From contig JACTVC010000004.1 of assembly GCA_018417955.1 (NCBI GenBank), positions 248,001 to 312,000 on the forward strand: 64,000 bases of DNA. The letters run 5' to 3'. The notes under the pieces were generated by a model. It was not told the origin of the DNA. It searched no databases and saw nothing but the letters and a program-made list of their open reading frames with translations. The DNA comes from Laccaria trichodermophora (Eukaryota > Basidiomycota > Agaricomycetes > Agaricales > Hydnangiaceae). How positions within the stretch are numbered: the first letter of the stretch is position 1; each line of letters opens with the position of its first letter. Shown piece by piece: positions 7,626 to 62,988 of this stretch. The translations under genes and the position numbers were made by a program.

Positions 7626-8050
7626 TTACCGCGCCCTCCGAACCGCATCAGAAAATGCTTATGTAAAGTGCGGAGTTTAAAACCGGAACACCCTCATAAC
7701 TCTCGACGCGTTTAAAGTTTTTCAACACTGTCTGCCATCACAAATTTCGTTCACATTTCATTATGACCTCAACCTCAACGTATAGCAACATCTCAATTGT
7801 CAGATTTTTCAAGGAATTGCAACCAATCACTGAAATACCAGATTGAACTCCAGGGTTGACTGAGACTGGACCTGACCTAACTGCAGTTAGGGTTAATCCA
7901 TACTAGCTGATACCCATGTGTTTGCACAGGTCCTCCTTGATATTACTCATGATTAAGTAGTTGATTCGACAAATCAGAAGTGTTAATATATTATTTACAA
8001 ATGGTGGTTGAGGTTGAGGTAGAGGAGAAGGTGAAGATGGGGTATCTAAG
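7626..8050. other. Intergenic, nothing recognised
   Basis: Unique-looking sequence between the repeat block and the decayed gene to the right. No coding signal or repeat end is seen. Confidence 0.3.
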
Positions 8051-9844
8051 AATCTAAGAATCTTGCTTTCTTGATTGGGCTAAGAGTTGCCTGACTGAAA
8101 TCAAACTGAAGCCCTTTGTGCTTCAAGGAAGTCAATGTAGCTTCTGATAAAATTGAAATTATTTGGAAAGTAGTCAAAGAAAGAATAAAATAGACTTACC
8201 AGCATCAGCCACTTGATTGGGACCAACAGGCACAGCTGTCTTTCCCAAGATATTGACCTGCTCAACTTCAACCTCAAAAAATTGTGGGTTCCCATCATCC
8301 TTCTGGAGAACTCAGGAGAGAAATCCAGTAACAGCCACAATATGTCCAACTTGAAGCTTTGGCATTGTCATCCATCAAGGAGATGGTTTGATAACACAGC
8401 AGAGGGGGAGTGACAAATTTTTAAGGCCAGGCTTCAGGTTTTTATTGTAGTCCTTGTAGACATAGGTGTATTGCTCCAGGACAAGGTCAATTGTGACCAT
8501 GCCAGACTGTGTGTCAGAATGGACCATGGTAAGGTAGCCATATGCATGGATGATGAAATGGTTGCAGGCATGTTGTATCTGTGTGGGAATGAGCTGTAAA
8601 ATGGAATGAGTTATCTTATCTGATGAAAAAAGAAAGCCTTACTCACAGAAATGATGTCCCCTACCAAAGAGTAATCTTTGTTACTCAACTCCAGTGATGC
8701 AATGTTCAGAAAAATTTTGCCAGCAGAGTCAAGAAGCTTAATGCAGGTGAATATGCATTTTAGAAATAAGGAAAGGTAAAACTCACATTTGCAGTGATAA
8801 AGTACACATCAACATCATTGAAGATGAGGCCCTGGCTGTTGGGGTAGCACAGCAAGGCCAGTATACCCTTTTCAGACTTCTTGTTAGCATGCAAAGGTAT
8901 ACACTCAAAATATTTTATGTACCTTGTTCAGTTTGACCTCTATCAACAGTTTGTTGTTGTTGTTGTTGCCTTTCACACTTGTGCTGCAGGCATTGACCTA
9001 AAGAGTGGGCATTGGAGATCTGTGGCAATTCATTGATTGTTGGTGTTGATTGGCCCCTCTCTTGCTGTTGTTGCTGCCTTTCACACTGCATTAGGGGTCT
9101 GAGTGGCTTCATTTGTCATTGTTGTGGACATGGTGGTGTACTTTGACCTCTGTCAATGTTCTGTTGCTGTCATTGTAGCTTTTCACACTCATGCCACAAA
9201 TGCTGAGCTAAAGAGCAGGTGTTTGGAGTCTGGTTCACTTCACTTGTCATTGGAGTGGGCTGAACTGTTCCAATTGCCCTTTGCAACAAAGAAGAAATAA
9301 GAGTATAAGGAATCTAAGGCAGGAAAATTAGTTAGAAATTCAATAAAGATTGAGAACATACCTCAATCCCAAGGCTATGACCTCCTGCAGTTCCCTCAAC
9401 AGCAAGTCAGCCTGCCTGCAAATTTTCTCTACTCAGAAGGGTGCATACAGCCCAAGCTGTCCAGCAAACTGGCTATTCAGAGGTAGTTGCATCGTAGGTT
9501 CATTTTTGTCCAAGGGTTGGGGTGGCTGACAATGCCTGGGACTGCTTTGAATGTTGATCTGTCATGACTCTCGCACTGATGCTCTGGAAGACGTTCTTGC
9601 CCTTTCATCTGATATGGTCAGTGGTGTAGGTGTTTCTGATCTAGGATTGTGAATTTTGCAGCAGCAGGGGCTTCTGTCTCCAGCAATGTTCAAATTGCAA
9701 AGCACCATACAGGCTTCTTCTTGTTGCTGCTGGGGAGTGGAGAAAATGTGATTATGGGCAGACCTACAAAAAAAAACATTCAGCATCAGAAAGCAAAAGG
9801 TAGATTCAAAAGCCAAGCAAATACATTGGGAAAGGGAGGTTCTG
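8051..9844 (-). pseudogene. Decayed multi-exon gene of unknown function, Gln-rich
   Basis: Minus-strand exons can be joined by canonical introns. One exon reads GILALLCYPNSQGLIFNDV then DVYFITAN up to a donor near 8787. The next reads LLDSAGKIFLNIASLELSNK. The next contains HAYGYLTMVHSDTQSG and VTIDLVLEQYTYVYKD and ends in the stop near 8377. The upstream part contains degenerate Gln-rich units (CERQQQQQERGQS-like) and at least four TGA codons in frame, for example near 9145 and 9447, in contexts where CGA or another sense codon would fit. I do not recognise the family. The 5' end is cut by a solo LTR at 9845. It could be a degraded transposon gene. Confidence 0.5.
9840..9844 (+). other. Target-site duplication (left) of solo LTR
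   Basis: TTCTG lies directly before the LTR and again directly after it at 10164-10168. Confidence 0.85.
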
Positions 9845-10163
9845 TGTGAAGCGTTCACTCTGAACTTCTCACATAGCTGAAGCCAAGAGGGAAGGAGGAG
9901 GCAAGAATGGGTGGATCTGGGATCAACACCCATAAGTGAGCAATGAGCAGTTACAAGATACTCAGCTGGCCCAACATGATTATGCATACTGTAGGAAGTA
10001 CAGATATACAAAGCACTACATGTAGTGCAAGAGGATGGCAAGACTGCTGACAAGATGGTGGTTCAAGACAAAAGATCAATATATTATGTAAGATATCCAA
10101 ATCTAGCTATATACCACTGTTTGACTATGGCCTCTGGGCATTCCCTTCCAATCCTATATCACA
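9845..10163 (-). mobile_element. Solo LTR, 319 bp
   Basis: Begins TGTGAAGCG and ends ATATCACA on the plus strand (TG...CA ends), flanked by the 5-bp duplication TTCTG. It is the same length as the two LTRs at 60095 and 63653 and differs from them at about five positions, so it is older than that element. The strand is given by the polarity of the full element. It results from LTR-LTR recombination of a former insertion upstream of the decayed gene. The cysteine-containing open frame inside it is simply LTR sequence. Confidence 0.92.
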
Positions 10164-11493: not shown

Positions 11494-13098
11494 TCATATT
11501 TCTCCAGGGTCATTCTTCCCCTCAGTTTGCTCTGTAATCTGTACGACCCTAATTCTATCCTCAGCACAAACTTCATGATCGGGTTTCGGGATCATGGGGT
11601 TTGTCTGACTATCATCGGCAGAATGAGCAGCCAGAGCTGGAAGCACCAGGAGCGGACGATTGAGGAAGCTATGAATAGCGTTCTCTGCCACAGCCCACAA
11701 ACCAACGCCCAGCGTTGAGGCGATTATGGGAATTACAAAACTAGGCCAATCATAATACTTGAAGAAAACATAGTTCATTCCCTTCGCAATACTTCCCTCA
11801 CGAATGTATCCAAACAAGACAATAGACCAGAATCCAGTGAAACAACCAAAAAGGGTAGCGCCGCTTGTGACGTACTTACTAACTCTGTCCCACATACCGA
11901 GAAAAATCGGCGCCGCGGACATAGTGCAGAGCGTACCACCAACCAGGAAAAGGGAATTGATATTATAACCTTGGAGCGAGATCACGACCGCAGGAATATT
12001 TATGAGGAAAACGAAAATGCGGATATATCTTGTGGAAAATTTGCGCAGAAAGACCGCTGAGAAGGTATTTGTAATAGCATTCTCCCATGTGTCAACGTCG
12101 CCTGTGTTCATGGCAACGGCAGCAACGGCCACAACAATAAGAATCCAGGTTGGAGCTCCTCTTCCTCCCGTGTCAAGGAGATCAAAGAAAGCTGTTGACC
12201 CCGTAGGATCAGAAAGCGGGACACCGCTCCAGATCGCCAAAAAACCTCCAAAGCCATATAAGAAACATACGGCTACAAGGAGCATAAAGGCCCAGAGAGC
12301 GCCTCTTTTAAGCGCGCGATCATTTTTAGAAGCCCACGCCCTTTGCCAGGGTCCCTCACTGAAGAGAGTTCCTGTTATGTTTGCTAGAGGTTGGCAGACG
12401 ATGGCCGAATATCCCCAATAGTTAGGGCCGAGTTGGTGATTGAGAGGTGGAAGGGGTCCAGGACGAAAAGTAGAGGCGACGTAACCATACACAAGTAGGA
12501 GAAGAAAAACAGAAATCATGCCTTGAATAACATCAGTGAGGATACTGATGTAAAGACCTCCGACTGCAGTATAGATCGAGGTTACGATGGCGACAGTCAG
12601 TACGATGGGAATACGAGAACCGCCGAGCGTGAATTCAAAGAGATTGCCTATAGCTGTGTACTCAGCAGCAAGTGCGAGGAACATGTTTAAAAGCATCAAG
12701 GCGGCAACGTAGAATTGGACGGCACGACCGAAACGCCAACGAGCAAAATCAGTGATGGAGACGATGTGCGGATACTTCTTTCTGAGAATGGATCCAAGGT
12801 GAGCGACTACGAGCACTGGGAGACCGCAAGATACGGCAAACGCGACTAGGCCGATGATTCCGGCCGAGACGACGTACGCTGGAAGAGCGAAAATCACCCA
12901 ACATCCAACGTTAGATGCATAATACGACCAGGCTATGATCCACTCAGGAGATGAATCCCTTGCTGTGAGGAAAAAGTCTAGTGATCCACTATTCGGATTG
13001 ACGCGGAGGAGTCGTCTCGTAAGGACAAGGGCGACTATTCCAAAAAGAACGACTTCCGGGATGCAGACAGCGTATGCAAGCGTCGGAACTTTGACCAT
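11494..13098 (-). CDS. Sodium:solute symporter (SSS) family transporter
   Basis: A 534-residue intronless frame starting at an ATG at 13098. It has about 12-13 hydrophobic segments from the N-terminus (TLAYAVCIPEVVLFGIVALV) to WPSFVIPIIASTLGVGLW, followed by a hydrophilic tail of about 60 residues. SSS-fold features include the early SLDFFLTARDSSPEWIIAWS, SITDFARWRFGR, and YTAVGGLYISILTDVIQG, the sodium-site helix region of this superfamily. These proteins couple solute uptake to Na+ or H+ across the plasma membrane. The fungal relatives best known are urea/polyamine permeases, but the substrate cannot be assigned here. The upstream region is repeat copy 2, the same sequence that lies upstream of the phosphotransferase-like gene. 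Confidence 0.88.
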   Translation of the reverse strand: MVKVPTLAYAVCIPEVVLFGIVALVLTRRLLRVNPNSGSLDFFLTARDSSPEWIIAWSYYASNVGCWVIFALPAYVVSAGIIGLVAFAVSCGLPVLVVAHLGSILRKKYPHIVSITDFARWRFGRAVQFYVAALMLLNMFLALAAEYTAIGNLFEFTLGGSRIPIVLTVAIVTSIYTAVGGLYISILTDVIQGMISVFLLLLVYGYVASTFRPGPLPPLNHQLGPNYWGYSAIVCQPLANITGTLFSEGPWQRAWASKNDRALKRGALWAFMLLVAVCFLYGFGGFLAIWSGVPLSDPTGSTAFFDLLDTGGRGAPTWILIVVAVAAVAMNTGDVDTWENAITNTFSAVFLRKFSTRYIRIFVFLINIPAVVISLQGYNINSLFLVGGTLCTMSAAPIFLGMWDRVSKYVTSGATLFGCFTGFWSIVLFGYIREGSIAKGMNYVFFKYYDWPSFVIPIIASTLGVGLWAVAENAIHSFLNRPLLVLPALAAHSADDSQTNPMIPKPDHEVCAEDRIRVVQITEQTEGKNDPGEI

Positions 13099-13139
13099 AC
13101 TTTCTGACTGCTCGCGAAGAGGCGCAGATAAGGGATGCT

Positions 13140-13470
13140 TGTTGTAAGTTATTTTCAGTCGTCGTTTATCGTATGAGACTGGGTATCATATCTACCTAGA
13201 GGGGGCACGTTCGAGCGCGGGAGGATGGGTTGGAGGCACGTTCGAGTGCGCAGCGACGGTCGGGGGCAGCGTTTGGGCACGGGGGTGGTTGGGAGTTGCT
13301 CGAGCGCGGGCGGCTATTGTAAGCTATCTTCAGTCGTCGTTTATTGTACGAGACTGGGTAAACCGTAAGTATATCTACATGTAAGATTAGTGAAACGAGA
13401 GTAATGAATGAGTGTACTAGTAGCATACTCACCTTCAGTCGTTTATCGTACGAGACTGAGGGTCTACTAG
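13140..13470 (+). repeat. GC-rich repeat block, copy 2
   Basis: Matches 7310-7622: the GGGGGCACGTTCGAG units at 13199-13300, then CTTCAGTCGTCGTTTAT with a GAGACTGGGTA block, then GAGAGTAATGAATGAGTG. The motif CAGTCG(TCG)TTTATCGTA occurs several times within the block. It sits within about 50 bp of the symporter start codon, so it may contain that gene's promoter. Confidence 0.75.
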
Positions 13471-44168: not shown

Positions 44169-47100
44169 ATGGAATCTTCCTCATTAACCGCACTGCTGCA
44201 CAACGCCGTCGCAACCACCATCTCTGGAGGTACACAGCTCATCAACGCCGGTCGTGATGTCGTTCTCCATGGCTATCCGGCCTCTTCTCCCGCAGGTATG
44301 TCAAATTTATGCCAATCTGTCAATACTATCAAATGTCTTTTTGCGTCTAGGTCTTCCGGACTTGCTTAGGCCTGTCTGCGACGGTACGCACACTCGCGGG
44401 GGTCACGTTGGCCGATGCGATCCAGGGACTCGCCTGGAGGTCATCACTCAGATCAAGCAGTGGCTTGATGACTCTGACAAGCAAGCTGCCGTCTGCTGGC
44501 TCAATGGGCCAGCTGGCTTTGGCAAGTCAGCATTAGCTCAAACCATTGCAGAGCACTATGCCACAGAGGGCCGCCTTTTAGGGAGCTTCTTCTTTCTTCG
44601 AGGCGCTGGTGAACGAAGCCACATATCTCGCCTAATTCCTACCCTTGCCCATCAGATCTCTGTTTTTGTTCCTGCTGCAAAGCCATCACTTGAGAGGGCT
44701 CTTCACGATGAGCCAGCCTTGCTTGAACCCTCTGTCTCTCTTGCACATCAATTTCAGAAGTTAATCATAGATCCAACTCATTCTACCACTTTCAAAATCC
44801 TCTCTAGTATTGAAGCCTTCTCTGGTTTTGCAAGGCAAAAGATTCTTGTTATTGATGCTCTTGACGAATGTGATGACAAGGCTGAGATGGCACACTTCAT
44901 CGATGTTTTGATCAATGTGTCTGTAAGGGACGTTATCTTCCTTTCCGAATACTTCTTACCAGCAGGGTGGAGGAACATATTCAGAAAAGATTTGATAATT
45001 CTGGCACTCAGTCAGTTTTATACCGTCTGGACTTGGCAAATTATGATGCTTGTTTGGATATCCAGGTTTATTTTGAGAAACAGTTTAACTGCATCTATGA
45101 TCAGAACTTGTGATTGATGCAGAGGATATCAAAGCCCTGGCCATCTACCAGGGATCTTGCTATACTCCTAAACATGGCTGGTAGTTCATTTGCATTTGCC
45201 ACTACATTGATTCAATTTGTTGGAGGATATTCCATACCACACAAAGCTTTGCAAAAACTACTGGAATCTGGGATCACTAGTCTGGATCCACTCTATGAAC
45301 AAGTTCTCTCCTCTGCACCTGGGACAGCAGACTTCCATCAAATTCTTGGAACAATCATCATTCTAGAGGACAACAAATCTATTACTTTCCTTGGCTCTCT
45401 CCTCCATCTTCAGAATGAAGATGTTATTTGTGAGCTCTTGCAACTACAGTCCATTATCAACATCCCTGGAAAAGATGATGAGCCTATCATGCTCTATCAC
45501 ACATCTCTCAGAGATTTTCTAACTACCAAATCACGATCAAAGCAATTTTTCATTGATCCCCCTCTGCAACACCTTCATATGGCCATACATTGTTTGAAGC
45601 ATCTTACAGAATACCCTCCAAAAGACTTTTTTGAGGGTGATGTGGCCCAGTATGCTTGCTTTAATTGGCCATGCCATATTCTTTTAGGATTTCAGAAGAA
45701 GGAATTAAATGTGGATGAAACAATCATGACCTCTTTGGTAAAAATTTACTAACTTTTCAGAGTAATTCATGGTATAATACCATGCTGAATTTTGGAGTTT
45801 CAAGGATGTTAAACTGTGTGAGAGATGGAAGGGATTTGTTTCAAGTCAGTCCTTATGATTCTCATATGATCATGACACTCTTAGCATATATAAGACATTG
45901 CAGGGGTCTGTTGTTATGAAAGAATTGACCAAGCTATTCAAACAAGTTATTGGTGTCTATCAAGTAAGTGTTTACAAATAGGAGATCTCAAATGATTTAT
46001 CAAGATCTTCCAACAGACAGTAAGTAACAGAACAATAATGCTGCTCAAAAGTTAATCTGTAAGATGAATAGGAGGTATGTGGTAATAAACAGTATCTTAA
46101 AGGTAAATATTGACCTGTTTTACAGAAAGTAAGCTAAGATATAATAAGATTGATTGCTGTTGATAAAGCACAGGAAGTAAGCACAAAACAATTACCAAGC
46201 AGAGCAAAATTTTATTCTTATTGTTGTTTTTCTTGCAGAATGTAATGTCTACAAATTGTTCAAGTTGTTATATATTCTGATAGAGGTCATTAGTTTGTGA
46301 GCAATCACTTTGCATAATATGATACACCTCATCATCAGCTGTCCATTTTCTGTAGAAAGTAAGTAATAACTGTTGATCCTGCAATGTATACAGCTAATGT
46401 GGTTATTTATAAATCTAGAGGGTAATATATAGTCTATTCATATTTCCTCTGCATGCTTATAGCAGAATATTTTAGTGGGTAAGTGATTATAAAACTTCCC
46501 AAATAATATTGATCTGACTCAATTCTCTGCCAAACCTACCATTTCTTAGGTGGTGAGTTGTTCTATTAGTGTTTATTATCTGTTCTGGCAACTCATTCCT
46601 TGCACCATTCTGGTAATCATGATGTGTTTCAAACCTATTTCAGAAAGTATGCTTTCTTGCATTTTATATTGCACACTTCTAAAACACATATTCTGGTCAA
46701 TTCTTTTAGGTGGTAAGTTAGCATTCCTTTTACTATGCACTCTTCTAGTAATGGAGACTGTGTCTGTCTTGTTTCAGGAGGTGAGTTGGCCAGGTTTCAA
46801 TGTGTGCTCTTCTGGTAACAAAGACTGTGGCCTATCTTATTTCAGAGAGTGAGTTGGCCTGGTCTTTAATGTGCTCTCTTCTGGTGACACAGACTGTGCC
46901 CAACTTGTTTCAGGAGGTGAGTTTGCCTGGTTTTTATGTGCACTCTGCTGGTGACAGAGAATGTGGCCTGTCTTGTTTCAGCCAGTGAGTTGGCTTGTTT
47001 TTTTATGTGCACTCTTCTGGTGACACGAAGGCCTGTTCTGTTTCAGTTGGTGAGTTTGCTCAGGTTTTAATGTTCACTCTTCTGGTGACACAGACTGTGG

Positions 47101-48070
47101 CTTGTCTTGTTTCAGACAGTAAGTTTGCCTGGTTTTTATTGTGCTCTCTTTTGGTAAACATCTTGATGCTTCTGTCTTTCTTAGGAGGTGAGCTGCTTTG
47201 CTTTTGGCCATGATTTTTTTTTGTCACACATCATCTCTCTCTATGTTTCTTAGCAAGTCAGTTACCTGTTTTTTGGTATATATTTCTCTGGAAAACCATT
47301 TTCAACATTTCCTTTTAGCATGTGAGTTTTCTATATTATTGTCTCTATCCATTCTACTCACCAAGTTCCTGCACTTCCTTTTTTATTTATAGAAAGTATG
47401 TCATCTCTCCTACATGTCTTGTAAGTTGTATTGATGGCTTTCATTTTTTGATCTACATGTATTCAATCATTATTCTTTATCAGATAATAAATCTCCAATC
47501 AATATCATTGAAGAGGGTTAGTTAAATTTTGACACACCATGGACCAATTTTATCACATTTCTGTGTTTCCTTTTTTTAGAATGTAGGTTATCCATCCATT
47601 TTTATTTCCAACACCCTGATATATACACATATATTGTTATTCACTCAGATTGTATGTTTTTATTCTCTGCTACCCAAAAATGCTCACATTTTGTAGCTTG
47701 TATGTCTTTCTCCAGATTATAGCACTTTCCCCTTCCAACTATTCTTTCTGATAGGAAGTATGTATTTCTTTACATCATTTAACCAGGTCACTTACCTCAC
47801 ATATATAGTGGGCAAGCCAACTCCATCTTCTATCATCTTTAAATCATTGGTGTCTAAACTTCTCTCATTTTTAGAGAGTATATTTTCTTGCTCTCACTGC
47901 ACACTCAATATTCATTATCAAAATTTATAGAAAGATATAGAGCTATCCAAATTCAATGAGGTCATTTATTTGCAAAATGTCAATTTTTGTATGTGTATTT
48001 ATCTGCTCTATATCTTCTTGTTCACCAACTCCACTCCCCTTAGTGGTTGATACACCCTCTATACCTATAA
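44169..48070 (+). CDS. NACHT-domain (NLR-type) protein whose 3' half is split into one-codon exons
   Basis: N-terminus MESSSLTALLHNAVATTISG; intron 44296-44350; then the NACHT domain: PGTRLEVITQIKQWL, Walker A LNGPAGFGKSALAQTIAE, ILVIDALDECDD (Walker B), followed by the usual FAFATTLIQFVGG block and HTSLRDFLTTKSRSKQFF. This is the agaric NWD/NLR architecture, a putative intracellular immune or incompatibility receptor with STAND ATPase. The frame is broken at about 44923 (shift), 45111 (TGA) and 45738 (shift or stop). Each break can be removed by a phase-0 intron: 44923-44984, 45066-45122 and 45711-45760. After exons at 45761-45844 and 45904-45963 come 28 exons of three bases each (see the array entry), then KDIELSKFNE (47931-47960) and WLIHPLYL with a TAA at 48068-48070. 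No ankyrin or WD repeats follow. Whether the protein is made is unknown. Confidence 0.7.
45964..47930 (+). other. Array of 28 one-codon exons separated by short introns
   Basis: From the donor at 45964 onward the sequence repeats the pattern acceptor AG, three bases, donor GT. First base of each three-base exon: 46017 ACA; 46072 GAG; 46126 AAA; 46174 GAA; 46239 AAT; 46294 TTT; 46356 AAA; 46419 AGG; 46476 TGG; 46550 GTG; 46644 AAA; 46710 GTG; 46778 GAG; 46846 AGA; 46914 GAG; 46982 CCA; 47047 TTG; 47116 ACA; 47185 GAG; 47254 CAA; 47319 CAT; 47393 AAA; 47580 AAT; 47649 ATT; 47697 CTT; 47755 GAA; 47809 TGG; 47875 AGA. Introns are 45-91 bp except one of 184 bp (47396-47579), which may hide a decayed unit near 47484. 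One donor is GC (47812). All exons around and inside the array are phase 0 and none of the 28 codons is a stop. Acceptors are pyrimidine-rich (TTTCAG, TTTTAG) and donors mostly GTGAGT, GTAAGT or GTATGT. Confidence 0.88.
46713..47253 (+). repeat. Eight near-identical ~65-bp introns inside the array
   Basis: Introns 46713-46777, 46781-46845, 46849-46913, 46917-46981, 46985-47046, 47050-47115, 47119-47184 and 47188-47253 are 62-66 bp long. They share GTGAGTT.GCCTGG at the start, CACTCTTCTGGTGACACAGA in the middle and GGC.TGTCTTGTTTCAG at the end; the first and last are the most diverged. The three-base exons between them are GAG, AGA, GAG, CCA, TTG, ACA and GAG, so the exons vary more than the introns. 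Confidence 0.85.
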
Positions 48071-56860: not shown

Positions 56861-59087
56861 TATGGAAAGCAAGACTGATCTGCTCGGAATTCTCGGTTGC
56901 TGATTTATTTGCTAAGTAATATAATTGATTTGTGGTATTTGCACCACAATTACATAATATACAGCTATGTTGTTCAAGTGCCTTTCTTCATGGTCTACTC
57001 GATGCCTTCATCATGTAACAGGCAAATTACATCATGGCCTTGCTCACTCGTCTGACATTCCGCTTCTGATCAATTCATCCCAGGGCTTGACAGTTATATG
57101 AGTGTCATTGTGATTTTTCCTGACAAGTTAATTTAAAGGTGGCATCAAGACTCAACCTACAACTCACATTTCTATGTGGCACTGTTTTCTTTGGCCAGCA
57201 TTGAATCTAGTCACACAAATTATATATAAATAATCTTTCTTCTGTGGCACTGATCTTGACATGGATGATGAGTCCATCACCCATTTCACCATTCACTAGA
57301 AAAGACTAAAGAAATTTACTATCTTGTCATGGTCTATTCTGCCTGGTTCACTATACCCTAAAAATATGCATTATTTTCTTGAAGGTCTCTTCAATGGAAG
57401 TATGATCTCCACCCCAGGAAATCCTGCAGGAGAGCAGGTTATTCATCAAAAGTGACTGAGGAACAAGACTCACCAGTTCAGCAATGTCTCTCATGTCTAC
57501 ATCCAGTCCAATGGTAATTGATTTCATCTTGAAGTTTAAAATTCCTTCTTTCACTTCTCAATCAGGTGGACCAATCAACATATAGAATGTGATCAAGTCT
57601 TCTGGGGCACATCACAGTGTCCTGTCATCAAATAAATTATCACAAACAACACTGGGTGTTGGGGAGTTTCATGATAATTTTGAGGCAGTTGTTTGCTGCA
57701 ACAACAATGCCCACAATTTCTTGAATGCCATCCACCCAGTTTGTTTGATAAACTAGTTACCACAACATCATGTGCAAGATGGCATTGCTAATAGAAAGAA
57801 TGTGAAGTTGTGAGTGTGTCTATTCAAAATTATGTGGGGAGAAGCCTCACATCCTTTTCTGAATATTTCCTGAATAGCTCTTTCTGAGTCAGCCACAAAT
57901 TGATTCAAAAGGTGCAAGATCACAATGAGTCTGCATGAAAATTTGCACAAAATCATACTCATCTTGGGACTTTGGCAGTGACAAAATTACTCTGCTTTTG
58001 CAAGCACAACCATCCCTGCATGGTCTGAGATGCCACCAGATGCTATTCTATGATTGGAGGCTAGTCTACTGTCATCTGAGAGCTGTGTGAGGCTACTCAT
58101 GACTGACAAAAGTGATCATGATTCCCACAGCTCTGAAACTTTGTGAAGCAATAGTTCAACCATTCTGCAAGCTAGAAATGCAAAACTTGGTGAGCTGAAG
58201 TACCATGTATTGAGCTCCAATAATGTCTTAAAAAAACTTGATAAAGTGAGATTCTGCACTCACTGAAGAAAGATTATAAAATTTCAAAATTTGTGAAGTA
58301 TCACCAATTACAGCTGATAGAAGCAACATAAGGCTTAGGTTTGTTATCAAGAATTACTTCACCAGAACCCATCTGTATCCTGGTAAAATTTCATGGCGAA
58401 ATAAAATCTTCTTACATAGATACAATTTTGATGCATCTTAAGATCTTGCCATAAAAGGGGGAAGGATGGGATTTAAAAAAGATAAAAATCACCCTTCAAA
58501 AGCATCTGAAATATGCTCAATTTCTCTGTCCAAGACCTTGGGCTTGTTGTTACTATATTCAAAAATAGTGCAAAAATAGTGTCTGCATTCACTTTTGTCT
58601 GCCATGAGTATAGGGTGGGCTTTGTTGCACCTGGAAGCATTGTAGTGTTTTGGATGCAGCAAAACTACTTTAGCACTGACATAGCCATGCACTCAAGATG
58701 CTAATGCTTGGAGGTTGGTTGGAGGATCATTGTGTGATGTTTCTTCAAGGAAGTATGTGCAAATGTGCCTCAGTGTTGGTGTATTTTGTCAATTTAAGCC
58801 TGAAACATCTTGGGAACATCAAGTAAGTTGATTTAAATCTGTAATTACATTGCAGAATTACTGATATTCTTTGAATTAATAAGATACCCAGTAACGATAT
58901 GTGTTCCAACAGTGCCAATACTTGATGGATGTTAGATGGCAAGACTTGGGCAATGGCTCTGTGAAATTCTTCATTGCAGATTGCATAATTATGGTACAAA
59001 TACCATGAATCAATTATATTACTTAGCAAATATGCGGCCATCAATTGGCAACCGAGAATTCCGAGCAGATCAGTCTTGCTTTCCATA
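56861..59087. mobile_element. DNA transposon with ~110-bp TIRs, 2.23 kb, decayed inside
   Basis: Left end TATGGAAAGCAAGACTGATC and right end are exact inverted copies for the first 40 bases, then match imperfectly for another 70 (left copy lacks about 11 bp). GTGCTA flanks both sides. The inside has only short open frames on the minus strand (57351-57554, 57768-57962, 58489-58692, 58745-59086), none recognised as a transposase. The last of these starts inside the right TIR. The superfamily cannot be named. A 6-bp duplication is unusual for the common superfamilies. Confidence 0.65.
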
Positions 59088-59093
59088 GTGCTA

Positions 59094-60089
59094 TGCGCCG
59101 CAGGCCAGAAAAATATTTGAATAGCTCACTTACCTTGTGGGAAATTATAGGATACACTAATATGAACCCAGAATGCATTTTTAAATCACTGAAAAGAGAA
59201 TTTGTGCTGTTCTGAGCATAAAGTCAGTTCCACTGCAATTGCTCATCAAAGTATGTGTCGATGCTAGTAGAATATCTCAGAGTATGTGGAAGCACTTTAC
59301 ATGCACTTCTTCCTCCTAATGGCAGGTTGTTGCATTAAAGGCAACAAAAAGACAGAATCAATGGGTAAAAAAATGTTGTACTGCTTTAAAAATGCAGATA
59401 CAGGAGTGCTGGTATGTTGTTAATATTTCCTCACATAGTCTTGACCTTCATATAAAAGAATTTGTAACAATCTCAAGATCTGGACTGTGTTGCAATAAAT
59501 CTATCTAAAGTTGACAATAAATCTGTCATAATTGAACAATCCTTGCTGCTGATCTATAATTCTACATATATAATCAGTGGAAAGTATCCTGCTTCTTACA
59601 TGCACATTTTTGAAAGGAATTGAAACATTCTCAGCTGTTCCAGACATGACACTAGAGCCATCATTATTCCTGTTCATTGTAATTTTCAGTACTCTATCCT
59701 TGTTAGCTCGACATGAGGAACTTGAACATAAATCTGCTTTGCAATTAATCTGAGCTTTTGGCATAATCTCCTGTCTTGTGGTTTCATGTGTAAAAATGCA
59801 TGCTGATGGGAAGACTCACTCATAATATCTAACCATTTTCCTCATAGTTGTGGCCCCTGATAGGTGCCTGCCCCATTTTTAAATGGTAGATAGGGAGAGG
59901 ATATATTTCACAAATTTTCCTAGCAATCTGTCAAGTTTCTAACAAGATACATATTTGTGGTTCAATTATCTCTGTGAAAAAAAAAAAGATGTCAATCACT
60001 GGAATTGAACTTAGATTGGCCATAAAAGGAGATCAAAAAAGCGCAATAATCCACTACACTATACAGCCCTATATAATATTTACATGTAG
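59094..60089. other. Intergenic, AT-rich, no gene recognised
   Basis: Short frames only. Donor-like sequences on the minus strand near 59115 and 59805 hint at old exons, but none could be joined. Confidence 0.3.
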
Positions 60090-60094
60090 TTACC
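60090..60094 (+). other. Target-site duplication TTACC (left)
   Basis: TTACC directly before the left LTR; the same five bases follow the right LTR at 63972-63976. Confidence 0.9.
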
Positions 60095-60413
60095 TGTGAA
60101 GCGTTCACTCTGAACTTCTCGCATAGCTGAAGCCAAGAGGGAAGGAGGAGGCAAGAATGGGTGGATCTGGGATCAACACCCATGAGCGAGCAATGAGCAG
60201 TTACAAGATACTCAGCTGGCCCAACATGATTATGCATACTGTAGGAAGTACAGTTATACAAAGCACTACATGTAGTGCAAGAGGATGGCAAGACTGCTGA
60301 CAAGGTGGTGGTTCAAGACAAAAGATCAATATATTATGTAAGATATCCAAATCTAGCTATATACTACTGTTTGACTATGGCCTCTGGGCATTCCCTTCCA
60401 ATCCTATATCACA
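60095..60413 (-). mobile_element. LTR (left in window, 3' LTR of the element), 319 bp
   Basis: TG...CA ends. Identical to the LTR at 63653 except at one position found by eye (CGAG here, TGAG there, near 60186). The element is read on the minus strand because the bases next to this LTR give a polypurine tract there. Confidence 0.92.
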
Positions 60414-61200
60414 AAGCCCCCCAATGTCCAGAGGGCATGTAAGGAAAACAATGGTGGGGAAGAATAATAGAATAGAAATCCTCTTGCCCCCCAGAGTGAA
60501 TATCAGGATAAAATGAGACCAAAAGGTAGTAAAGCAAAGAAGATGAATAAAAGAAAGAAAAAATTTGGCCCCAAATAATTTGCTATCTGGAAAGCTGGTC
60601 ACTGTAAGCTCCCAGCTTAACCCAGAAATACCCATATGATCCTCCCATTCTCTCTTCAGTGATGTATAACCATGAGTACTGGGAAACCATGCAAGTGGAT
60701 GGCTTCCAGGTCATCCATCCCAACTCCATTGCCTTTCCCCATCAAGATGGTGTAGCATGCTTCCATCATACTTGTGGTCTGGGTATAAGACATGTATAGT
60801 GTGATAGAGGCTTGTGCCTCTCCACTCAGATCGTTGATCCCAACTCAACTCCCTCTACCCATCAAGATGATGTAGCTTGCTTCCATTGTGGTGTGTCGTC
60901 TGGACGTGGGGAGCGTGTAATGGGATAGAGGCTTGTGCCTCTCCTCCCATCTTCCACCTATACTCCCCTACAGCCCCCCACTTTTCCAGTGTGCGAATCT
61001 CAAGAATCAAGCCAGGGAGGATAGAGGCGAAGAGATCGTGCAGTGGAAAATTACAAGCCGTGATCCTAAGTTGGTGTCTGAGTGGGTAAAGGTGGTGCCA
61101 TGTTGGGTAGGAATGATAAGAGGTCAAAGGAAAGGAGGGGAAAAAAATGTTGTCATAAATTTTGCCCCCCAGAGTGGACACAGGCCATGCAACACACAAG
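60414..61200 (-). repeat. Internal region of the LTR element with a ~120-bp duplication
   Basis: 60719-60830 and 60839-60955 are related (CCCAACTC...CCATCAAGATG.TGTAGC.TGCTTCCAT...GATAGAGGCTTGTGCCTCTCC). GCCCCCCAGAGTG also occurs twice, near 60486 and 61165. There are no coding features. Confidence 0.6.
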
Positions 61201-61926: not shown

Positions 61927-62988
61927 CTATAGAGCGTCCGATGCGAGCAGGTTATGACAATAGGAATGGGGAAATGGTTGTTGAAGAGATGGCACTGTAA
62001 CACAAGGACCGCTCGTCCGTTTGGCGCGTATAAGAGCTTCCCAGAAGCGCATTGACCGTGGCTTCAAAACAAGCCAATGAACAAAAGGAACGACGAGGAT
62101 CTCGCCGAGAACGGACGAGATATGTTCATTTTGGCCATGCCAGGCTGAACTAGGCGAAGCGCAGCCAATATGTGACAGTTTGGCGAGTTCATGGGGTCCA
62201 AAGAAAGGTATGAACGAGGGCTTCCCAGCGCAAAAGAGACGAGAGCAATCGGGGTGTTGGTTGGCGAGATATGACATGAACAAGTCACATGCAAATGGTT
62301 GTTGGAGGGATGGTGCTGTGACACGAGAACCGCTTGTCCGTTTGACGCGTATGAGGGCTTCCCAGAAGCGCATTGACCGTGGCTTTAAAACGAGCCAAAG
62401 AACAAAAGGGACGACGAAGATCTCGCCGAGAATGGATGAAACATGCTCATCTTGGTCATACCAGGCTGAACTAGGCGAAGCACCGCCAATAGGTGACCGT
62501 TTGGCGAGTTCAGGGAGTCCACAGAAAGGTGTGAATGAGGGCTTTCCAACGCAAAAAGGATGAGCGCAATCGGGGCATCGGTTGGCGAGATATGACATGA
62601 ACAAGTCACATGTAAGTGGTTGTTGGAGGGATGGTGCTGTAACACAGGAACCGCTCGTCCGTTTGACGCGTATGAGGGCTTCCCAGAAGCGCATTGACCG
62701 TGGCTTCAAAACGAGCCAAAGAACAAAAGGAACGACGAGGATCTCGCCGAAAACGGACGAGAAATGTTCATTTTGGTCATACCAGGCTGAAGTAGGTGAA
62801 GCGCACCCAATACGCGACCGTTTGGCGTGTTCAGGGGGTCCAAAGAAAGGTATGAACGAGGGCCTCCCAGCGCAAAAGAGACGAGAGCAATCGGGGCGTC
62901 GGTTGGCGAGATATGAGGTGAATAAGTCCCATGTTGATGTCCCATCAACCCCATCCAACCCAAAACCACTCCAAACCCTTCTAACCAT
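61927..62988 (-). CDS. Repeat-encoded open frame inside the LTR element (107-residue repeats)
   Basis: An open frame of 353 residues on the element's sense strand. It consists of about three copies of a 321-bp unit (for example the block around ATTGACCGTG at 62051, 62372 and 62693), and 321 bp equals 107 codons, so all copies stay in frame. Each unit reads CDLFMSYLANR.PDC, then KPSF.PFFG, AKRS.IG.ASPSSAWYDQ, LGEI.VVPFVLWLVLKPRS, MRFWEALIRVKRTSG. A CPDC-type cysteine pair recurs in two of the repeats. No family is recognised. No ATG-initiated start in good context is evident beyond the one at 62988, so translation is unproven. Confidence 0.5.
   Translation of the reverse strand: MVRRVWSGFGLDGVDGTSTWDLFTSYLANRRPDCSRLFCAGRPSFIPFFGPPEHAKRSRIGCASPTSAWYDQNEHFSSVFGEILVVPFVLWLVLKPRSMRFWEALIRVKRTSGSCVTAPSLQQPLTCDLFMSYLANRCPDCAHPFCVGKPSFTPFCGLPELAKRSPIGGASPSSAWYDQDEHVSSILGEIFVVPFVLWLVLKPRSMRFWEALIRVKRTSGSRVTAPSLQQPFACDLFMSYLANQHPDCSRLFCAGKPSFIPFFGPHELAKLSHIGCASPSSAWHGQNEHISSVLGEILVVPFVHWLVLKPRSMRFWEALIRAKRTSGPCVTVPSLQQPFPHSYCHNLLASDAL

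Follow-up and report, generated by a model that had tools for sequence, protein, structure and literature searches.

How a gene could carry dozens of neighbouring exons of a single codon each, and what such exons would serve for, is the question raised by a locus of the basidiomycete Laccaria trichodermophora. The DNA analysed, called the window below, is a stretch of 64,000 nucleotides (assembly GCA_018417955.1, contig JACTVC010000004.1, positions 248,001 to 312,000 of the forward strand), and the element in question is an array of 29 AG-NNN-GT/GC units at window positions 46017-47877, located at the 3′ end of a NACHT gene copy. The answer favoured here, which is regarded as quite probable, is that the NACHT (NLR-type) copies of this family have a C-terminal tail that is predicted to consist of one-codon exons, and that the middle codons of the tail have likely been reshuffled by recombination between near-identical introns, so as to give a variable recognition tail. 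The finding rests more on the whole family of copies than on the window copy, whose NACHT frame is broken.

The array in the window

First of all, 27 of the 29 window units consist of a YAG acceptor, three bases and a GT donor, and the other two are unorthodox: the TGG unit at 47809-47811 (unit 28) has the donor GCAAGC, and the AGG unit at 47514-47516 (unit 23) has the acceptor AAG. The first-pass annotation had counted 28 units and described one intron of 184 bp. The long interval is indeed there; because an AAG acceptor recurs at this unit in 13 of the 17 arrays compared, it holds the additional AGG unit and splits into 118 and 63 bp, and the count becomes 29. The GC donor at the TGG unit is likewise present in all 16 arrays of the main family and in L028 (the most diverged copy), and not in L027. 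Apart from the one of 118 bp, the window array introns are 45-91 bp long, and none of the 29 triplets is a stop codon.

The motif YAG-N3-GTN[AGT]G occurs 26 times in 45964-47930, compared with 0.85 +/- 0.91 (maximum 4) in 400 first-order Markov simulations of the same interval, which confirms that an array of such units lies in the NACHT gene where the first-pass annotation had placed it. At other acceptor–donor spacings the interval has no site at 0, 1, 2, 4, 5 or 6, one at 8, two at 9 and seven at 7; these seven are attributed to GTRAGT containing a second GT, for which reason an exon model with spacing 7 was rejected. Elsewhere in the window, the chain parser found at most three units at spacing 3 on either strand. 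Its first row, AG-TAA-GT at 45963, was removed by hand, being the donor of the upstream exon itself. The parts of the gene and of the array are as follows.

44347..45749, plus strand: NACHT coding region, which in this copy matches intact paralogues as two pieces, 44347-44922 and 44931-45749 (tblastn in the own genome)
45845..45903, plus strand: predicted 59-nt intron before the last ordinary exon (GTCAGT...TTGCAG)
45904..45963, plus strand: 20-codon exon (GSVVMKELTKLFKQVIGVYQ), the last ordinary one ahead of the array, ending in phase 0
46017..46478, plus strand: units 1-9 (T E K E N F K R W), which form the conserved N-part and have eight introns of 45-62 bp
46550..47321, plus strand: units 10-21 (V K V E R E P L T E Q H), which form the variable middle
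46728-47155: 69-bp tandem repeat of 6.3 copies inside the variable middle
47393..47877, plus strand: units 22-29 (K R N I L E W R), which form the conserved C-part
47931..48050, plus strand: predicted terminal exon, whose phase-0 reading begins KDIELSKF and is open to about 48050

The end of the upstream exon at 45963 is in phase 0, as had been claimed, and matches the open frame of the intact paralogues; at the place of the 59-nt intron, a gene model of Laccaria amethystina (P0043) joins FQ to TSQGS. The NACHT frame of the window copy shifts between its two pieces near 44925, and three-frame translation places an in-frame TGA at 45111-45113. In addition, this copy is about 10 nt shorter than its paralogues near 45740 (upstream DNA of 17 copies compared). 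The window copy is perhaps a pseudogene, or its breaks are in part due to faulty assembly, and possibly it makes no working protein.

The array family in the genome

When the own genome (59.0 Mb, 77 contigs) was searched at the DNA level, the window array turned up again on contigs C34, C76, C23 and C12. The main family comprises 16 full arrays including that of the window, with 26 to 103 triplets each, and two more distant NACHT copies found by protein search (57% and 51% identity) also carry arrays, of 24 and 29 triplets. That is to say, at least 18 arrays of 24 to 103 units exist on the NACHT copies nearest the window copy, and this number is a lower bound, the protein search having scored 86 of 196 candidates. 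Two additional pieces, a truncated copy with three triplets (L025) and a 3′ end piece with one triplet (L024), are left out of all counts over 18 arrays. The array of L019 (C34, 1144736) ends after its GC-donor TGG unit, and a matching last unit with 3′ end, which is L024 (1153808), follows about 9 kb on; L024 probably belongs to L019, whose array was probably split by an insertion. In L011, the acceptor of one unit is lost. L011 is missing from the N-part columns and L019 from the C-part columns compared below, and leading false hits of the parser were removed in the window (one, reading TAA), L011 (one) and L019 (two).

The homology among the copies covers the NACHT gene, beginning about 2 kb upstream, and in several copies runs to about 290 bp past the last unit. 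Downstream of more distant NACHT genes, there are at most two chained units at four genes of 34-36% identity (2.6 kb scanned downstream of each), and at most two in the 2.0 kb downstream of a truncated copy of 70% identity. In the 18 fetched sequences, YAG-N3-GT[AG][ATG]G has 609 sites at spacing 3, compared with 13-38 at every other spacing from 0 to 15.

The protein of L016 matches PF24883 (E 1.8e-24) and PF05729 (E 4.6e-9), i.e., it has a NACHT-type NTPase domain, and against this protein the window copy aligns as two pieces. A Pfam scan of the spliced prediction of L016 and of a relative, P0001, returned no WD40, ANK or TPR repeats up to E 0.1. In P0001 (569 aa with its own start), which is a relative and one protein only, no Pfam domain lies before residue 68. 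The nearest named relatives of the NACHT protein are from L. amethystina, at 79% and below, and a search for relatives on viral contigs found none.

Six copies on C76 (L011, L013, L015, L016, L017 and L018) have an inverted copy of about 190 bp of the pre-array exon and intron 1, roughly 910-1110 bp past the array end. Terminal inverted repeats or a mobile element as part of the system were rejected; the copies of the window, C12, C23 and C34 showed no such inverted copy.

Codons or tandem repeat

The chain parser is blind to the content of the triplets, and among the 717 triplets of the 18 arrays there is no stop codon, where 52.5 are expected from positional base frequencies with positions taken as independent, and 18.6 when each array–codon combination is counted once (315 combinations). 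As a control, triplets taken at 14 fixed offsets within the introns contain 6 to 50 stops each. The one-codon units free of stops and the good splice signals which had been described for the window hold there and over the whole family. Moreover, the introns 1-8 of L028 are no more like those of the other arrays than shuffled sequence (identity 0.537, shuffled 0.530), yet its codons 1-9 have a mean BLOSUM score of +2.38 in register and -0.53 off register; for L027, the intron identity is 0.592 (shuffled 0.553) and the codon scores are +2.71 and -0.71. The conservation of codons in L028 despite chance-level intron identity, together with the 0/717 stops, is new evidence for coding.

The conservation is found at both ends of the tail. 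At the N-end, unit 2 is GAG and unit 9 is TGG in all 17 arrays compared; at the C-end, counting back from the last unit, unit -5 is ATT and unit -2 is TGG in 17/17, and unit -4 is CTT in 16/17. The predicted tail thus begins with TENENF-K-K-W and ends with I-L-K-W-R, and the length of the middle part varies.

As to splice signals over the 18 arrays, G at donor position +5 occurs in 694 and a CAG or TAG acceptor in 692 of the 717 units, and a branch-site-like motif in 369 of the 699 introns, compared with 226 in shuffled introns. The L. amethystina model P0043 splices onto the first ACA and then continues into its donor (TVSN...), and a metagenome protein, P0078, behaves in the same way; these are two of the 120 relatives listed, most of the others stopping before this point, and they give a cross-species hint of splicing at the first triplet. 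When a composite spliced tail was searched by tblastn in the own genome for an intronless counterpart, none of the 10 matches extended beyond the first 23 residues (the pre-array exon), and a protein database search with the spliced tail gave four candidates, none at E <= 10. The first-pass annotation had proposed that intact paralogues without the matching contiguous codons would speak against the exons; the nearest paralogues being split in the same way, the genome yielded no contiguous tail, so this comparison cannot be used as it was worded.

All this has to be weighed against another account, by which a minisatellite-like tandem repeat lies in an intron or 3′ untranslated region and AG-NNN-GT is just part of the repeat unit, the single codons not being spliced. 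The window array is partly a 69-bp tandem repeat, and the long arrays consist mainly of 63- or 69-bp units. The 699 array introns are almost free of CpG as well, with 27 observed and 1774 expected (ratio 0.015, compared with 0.84 in the whole window); the window stretches 8001-10000 and 58001-60000 are also CpG-poor (observed/expected 0.04 and 0.13, the array being at 0.02), and at least one of them has dispersed repeats. Strong CpG mutation, through methylation of repeats, is probably the cause. However, a passive repeat would give triplets as uniform as their flanks, and it is the triplets that vary most: in the eight longest arrays (those with at least eight units of one length), introns of the same array are 81-97% identical and triplets 29-37%, which is about the level of unrelated codons. 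In six of these eight, every intron column is less variable than the least variable triplet column, the exceptions being L013 (one column) and L022 (two). L028 retains the 3-nt spacing and the codons even though no similarity of its introns to those of other arrays is detectable, and there are no stops among the triplets of any array. A tandem repeat without spliced codons is therefore hardly probable at all.

The variable middle of the tail

Between the conserved ends, the middles differ strongly even among close copies. L011 and L016 have 97.3% of their NACHT-exon DNA in common, and their middles, DRGFDWRQ and SSWGDDARWARAFFGGWQ, align hardly above shuffled sequence. Over the 21 pairs of seven C76 copies (seven of the eight main-family copies there, L018 being left out), the alignment of the middles exceeds shuffled by -0.06 to +0.22 per residue. 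Blocks are repeated within arrays, e.g., RIED in L013, and, in 7 of 16 tests (p < 0.05), units that share a codon also have introns more alike, which is what copying in blocks would produce.

Among the 376 codons in the middles of the main family, there is close to a single codon for each amino acid: Ala is GCA in 14/14, Gly GGG in 21/21, Asp GAT in 40/40, Asn AAT in 31/31 and Arg AGG in 41/45, and Cys does not occur. This looks like the reuse of a limited set of cassettes. In all 717 triplets of the 18 arrays, there are no cysteine codons, and one triplet ends in C. The latter would follow from CpG mutation, because C before the donor GT forms CpG; the lack of GGA, GGT and GCT is left unexplained by it.

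If the triplets are real exons, their diversity could also come mainly from alternative splicing, by which in-frame skipping of any subset would give many tail isoforms per gene. All exons being of 3 nt, the frame is kept whichever of them is skipped, and alternative splicing of 3-bp exons is reported for the NACHT-ANK genes of the truffle Tuber melanosporum, according to the papers that cite that work (PMC4986451, PMC10197012, PMC9815663, PMC3689799). Against it, the tails are already diversified by genomic differences between the copies. Skipping as the main source is considered a serious possibility, short of an even one.

Intact and broken copies

A further account is that the arrays are relics which were once useful, now decay and are kept only by duplication, with the triplets neutral. 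It can point to the NACHT match, which has stops or frame breaks in 10 of the 18 copies, the window copy among them, as well as to the lost acceptor in L011 and the array of L019, seemingly split by about 9 kb from its 3′ end L024. The NACHT match is stop-free in one piece in the other eight copies, and their arrays tend to be longer: 36, 56, 46, 38, 27, 103, 49 and 47 triplets (median about 46, n=8), compared with 27, 27, 46, 31, 26, 28, 48, 29, 24 and 29 (median 28.5, n=10) in the broken copies (Mann–Whitney p 0.02). Longer arrays on stop-free copies would fit ongoing use, the numbers being small. Moreover, the triplets are free of stops even in the broken copies, and the relic account is rated as highly unlikely.

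Several points weigh against the favoured reading, namely codons that are spliced and reshuffled. Only the eight copies just named, the window copy not among them, have a stop-free one-piece NACHT match, and the phase-0 reading of the terminal exon, open in the window, stops within about 10 codons in most paralogues. The triplets within an array are related by duplication, so the 717 are not independent, and the crude branch-site motif is missing in nearly half of the 699 introns. The middles are slightly above shuffled in 16 of the 21 C76 pairs, so that some common descent remains; 9 of the 16 same-codon tests are not significant, and for L023 the 'before' test runs in the opposite direction. 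The lack of a database match to the tail is expected if gene callers miss 3-nt exons, and equally if the tail is not made. The splicing and translation of the triplets are predictions from DNA sequence only.

Proposed mechanism

In the mechanism proposed, transcription would run through the array, and each short intron (45-70 bp) would be recognised as a unit by the spliceosome, so that joining proceeds from one 3-nt exon to the next; sequential or recursive removal of the introns, as had been suggested, is plausible. Translation of the spliced triplets would then yield a NACHT protein with a tail of 24-103 residues, which would act as the sensor in place of the WD40, ANK or TPR repeats of other fungal NLRs. 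At the level of the genome, unequal exchange or conversion between near-identical introns would add, delete or permute single codons with the frame always kept; such exchange would homogenise the introns while diversifying selection would keep the codons different. A bolder version, which is rather doubtful, is a codon-cassette receptor system: each gene would keep its sensor tail as one-codon cassettes, up to about a hundred of them, on introns that can replace one another; germline recombination would edit the tail residue by residue, and cell-by-cell exon skipping would draw many further tails from the same gene, so that the whole would amount to a combinatorial immune repertoire of a fungus.

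If the triplets are spliced, the exons would be extreme in size and number for one gene, and the locus would offer a direct test of the spliceosome on dozens of neighbouring 3-nt exons. Receptors would then also be diversified with the single amino acid as the shuffling unit, frame-safe by design. The arrays are also a warning that gene callers miss such tails, as no database protein matched the spliced tail.

Other features of the window

The window has other features apart from the array. An element of about 320 bp at 9845-10163 has the look of a dispersed repeat or solo terminal repeat of recent origin, with at least 38 further copies elsewhere in the own genome, on either strand and 98-100% identical (40 of 417 candidates scored). 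A second dispersed repeat at 60094-60500, which the end of the query cuts, is found at least 33 more times, with copies 99-100% identical (40 of 364 candidates scored). On the minus strand, 11497-13185 is a sodium:solute symporter gene (PF00474), matching two JGI proteins at 87 and 92% and then Mortierellomycotina, the nearest named, at 55-57%; none of the 62 hits is from a named agaric, Laccaria included, and the pattern may reflect either horizontal transfer or a database gap. A minus-strand open frame of 353 residues, which has no Pfam match, contains three tandem repeats of 321 bp at 61972-62933 (a period of 107 codons). Rfam and tRNA scans of the window found nothing.

Comparison with known systems

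The first-pass annotation had put the array forward as a candidate for an undescribed system, and this is not borne out. The NACHT-ANK (nank) genes of Tuber melanosporum are reported to have tens of codon-sized (3-bp) microexons which are alternatively spliced (Iotti et al. 2012, as cited in PMC4986451, PMC10197012, PMC9815663 and PMC3689799). From these citing descriptions, the architecture is already described in kind, and the arrays of Laccaria are a variant without ankyrin repeats. A full-text literature search, in coverage that leaves out most subscription journals, gave Tuber melanosporum as the sole match of this kind and no report of such arrays for Laccaria or other basidiomycetes.

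Two other groups of genes have many short exons. The micro-exon genes of Schistosoma have very short exons, mostly multiples of three; however, in the parts of the source consulted, they encode secreted parasite proteins without NACHT, with exons mostly of 15 bp and introns up to 5 kb (PMC10526429). The bicycle genes of aphids, as far as the text consulted describes them, are a fast-evolving family with many small internal exons of one phase, but that phase is 2 (here 0), and the products are insect effector proteins without NACHT (PMC9168663).

A further comparison is with the WD40, ANK and TPR repeats of fungal NLRs, for example the NWD genes of Podospora, in which near-alike repeats differ at few variable positions, and repeat shuffling with diversifying selection is the mode described (PMC4986451, consulted in part). 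The variable repeats likewise stand in the C-terminal part of NACHT proteins, and the mode of exchange proposed above matches the described one; in contrast, each repeat there encodes many residues, while here one DNA repeat would encode one residue and the remainder is intron.

As for Tuber, both fungi have, by the citing papers, an expanded family of NACHT-type genes in which tens of exons, each the size of a codon, lie towards the C-terminal part for recognition, the splicing being predicted in Laccaria. The genes of Tuber carry ankyrin repeats, whereas none were found here (one copy and one relative scanned). What Laccaria adds, beside what those descriptions hold, are homogenised introns with hypervariable codons, conserved ends and up to 103 units. 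With a second, seemingly unrelated fungus having an architecture of predicted 3-bp exons beside the truffle, convergence and common origin can be tested against each other.

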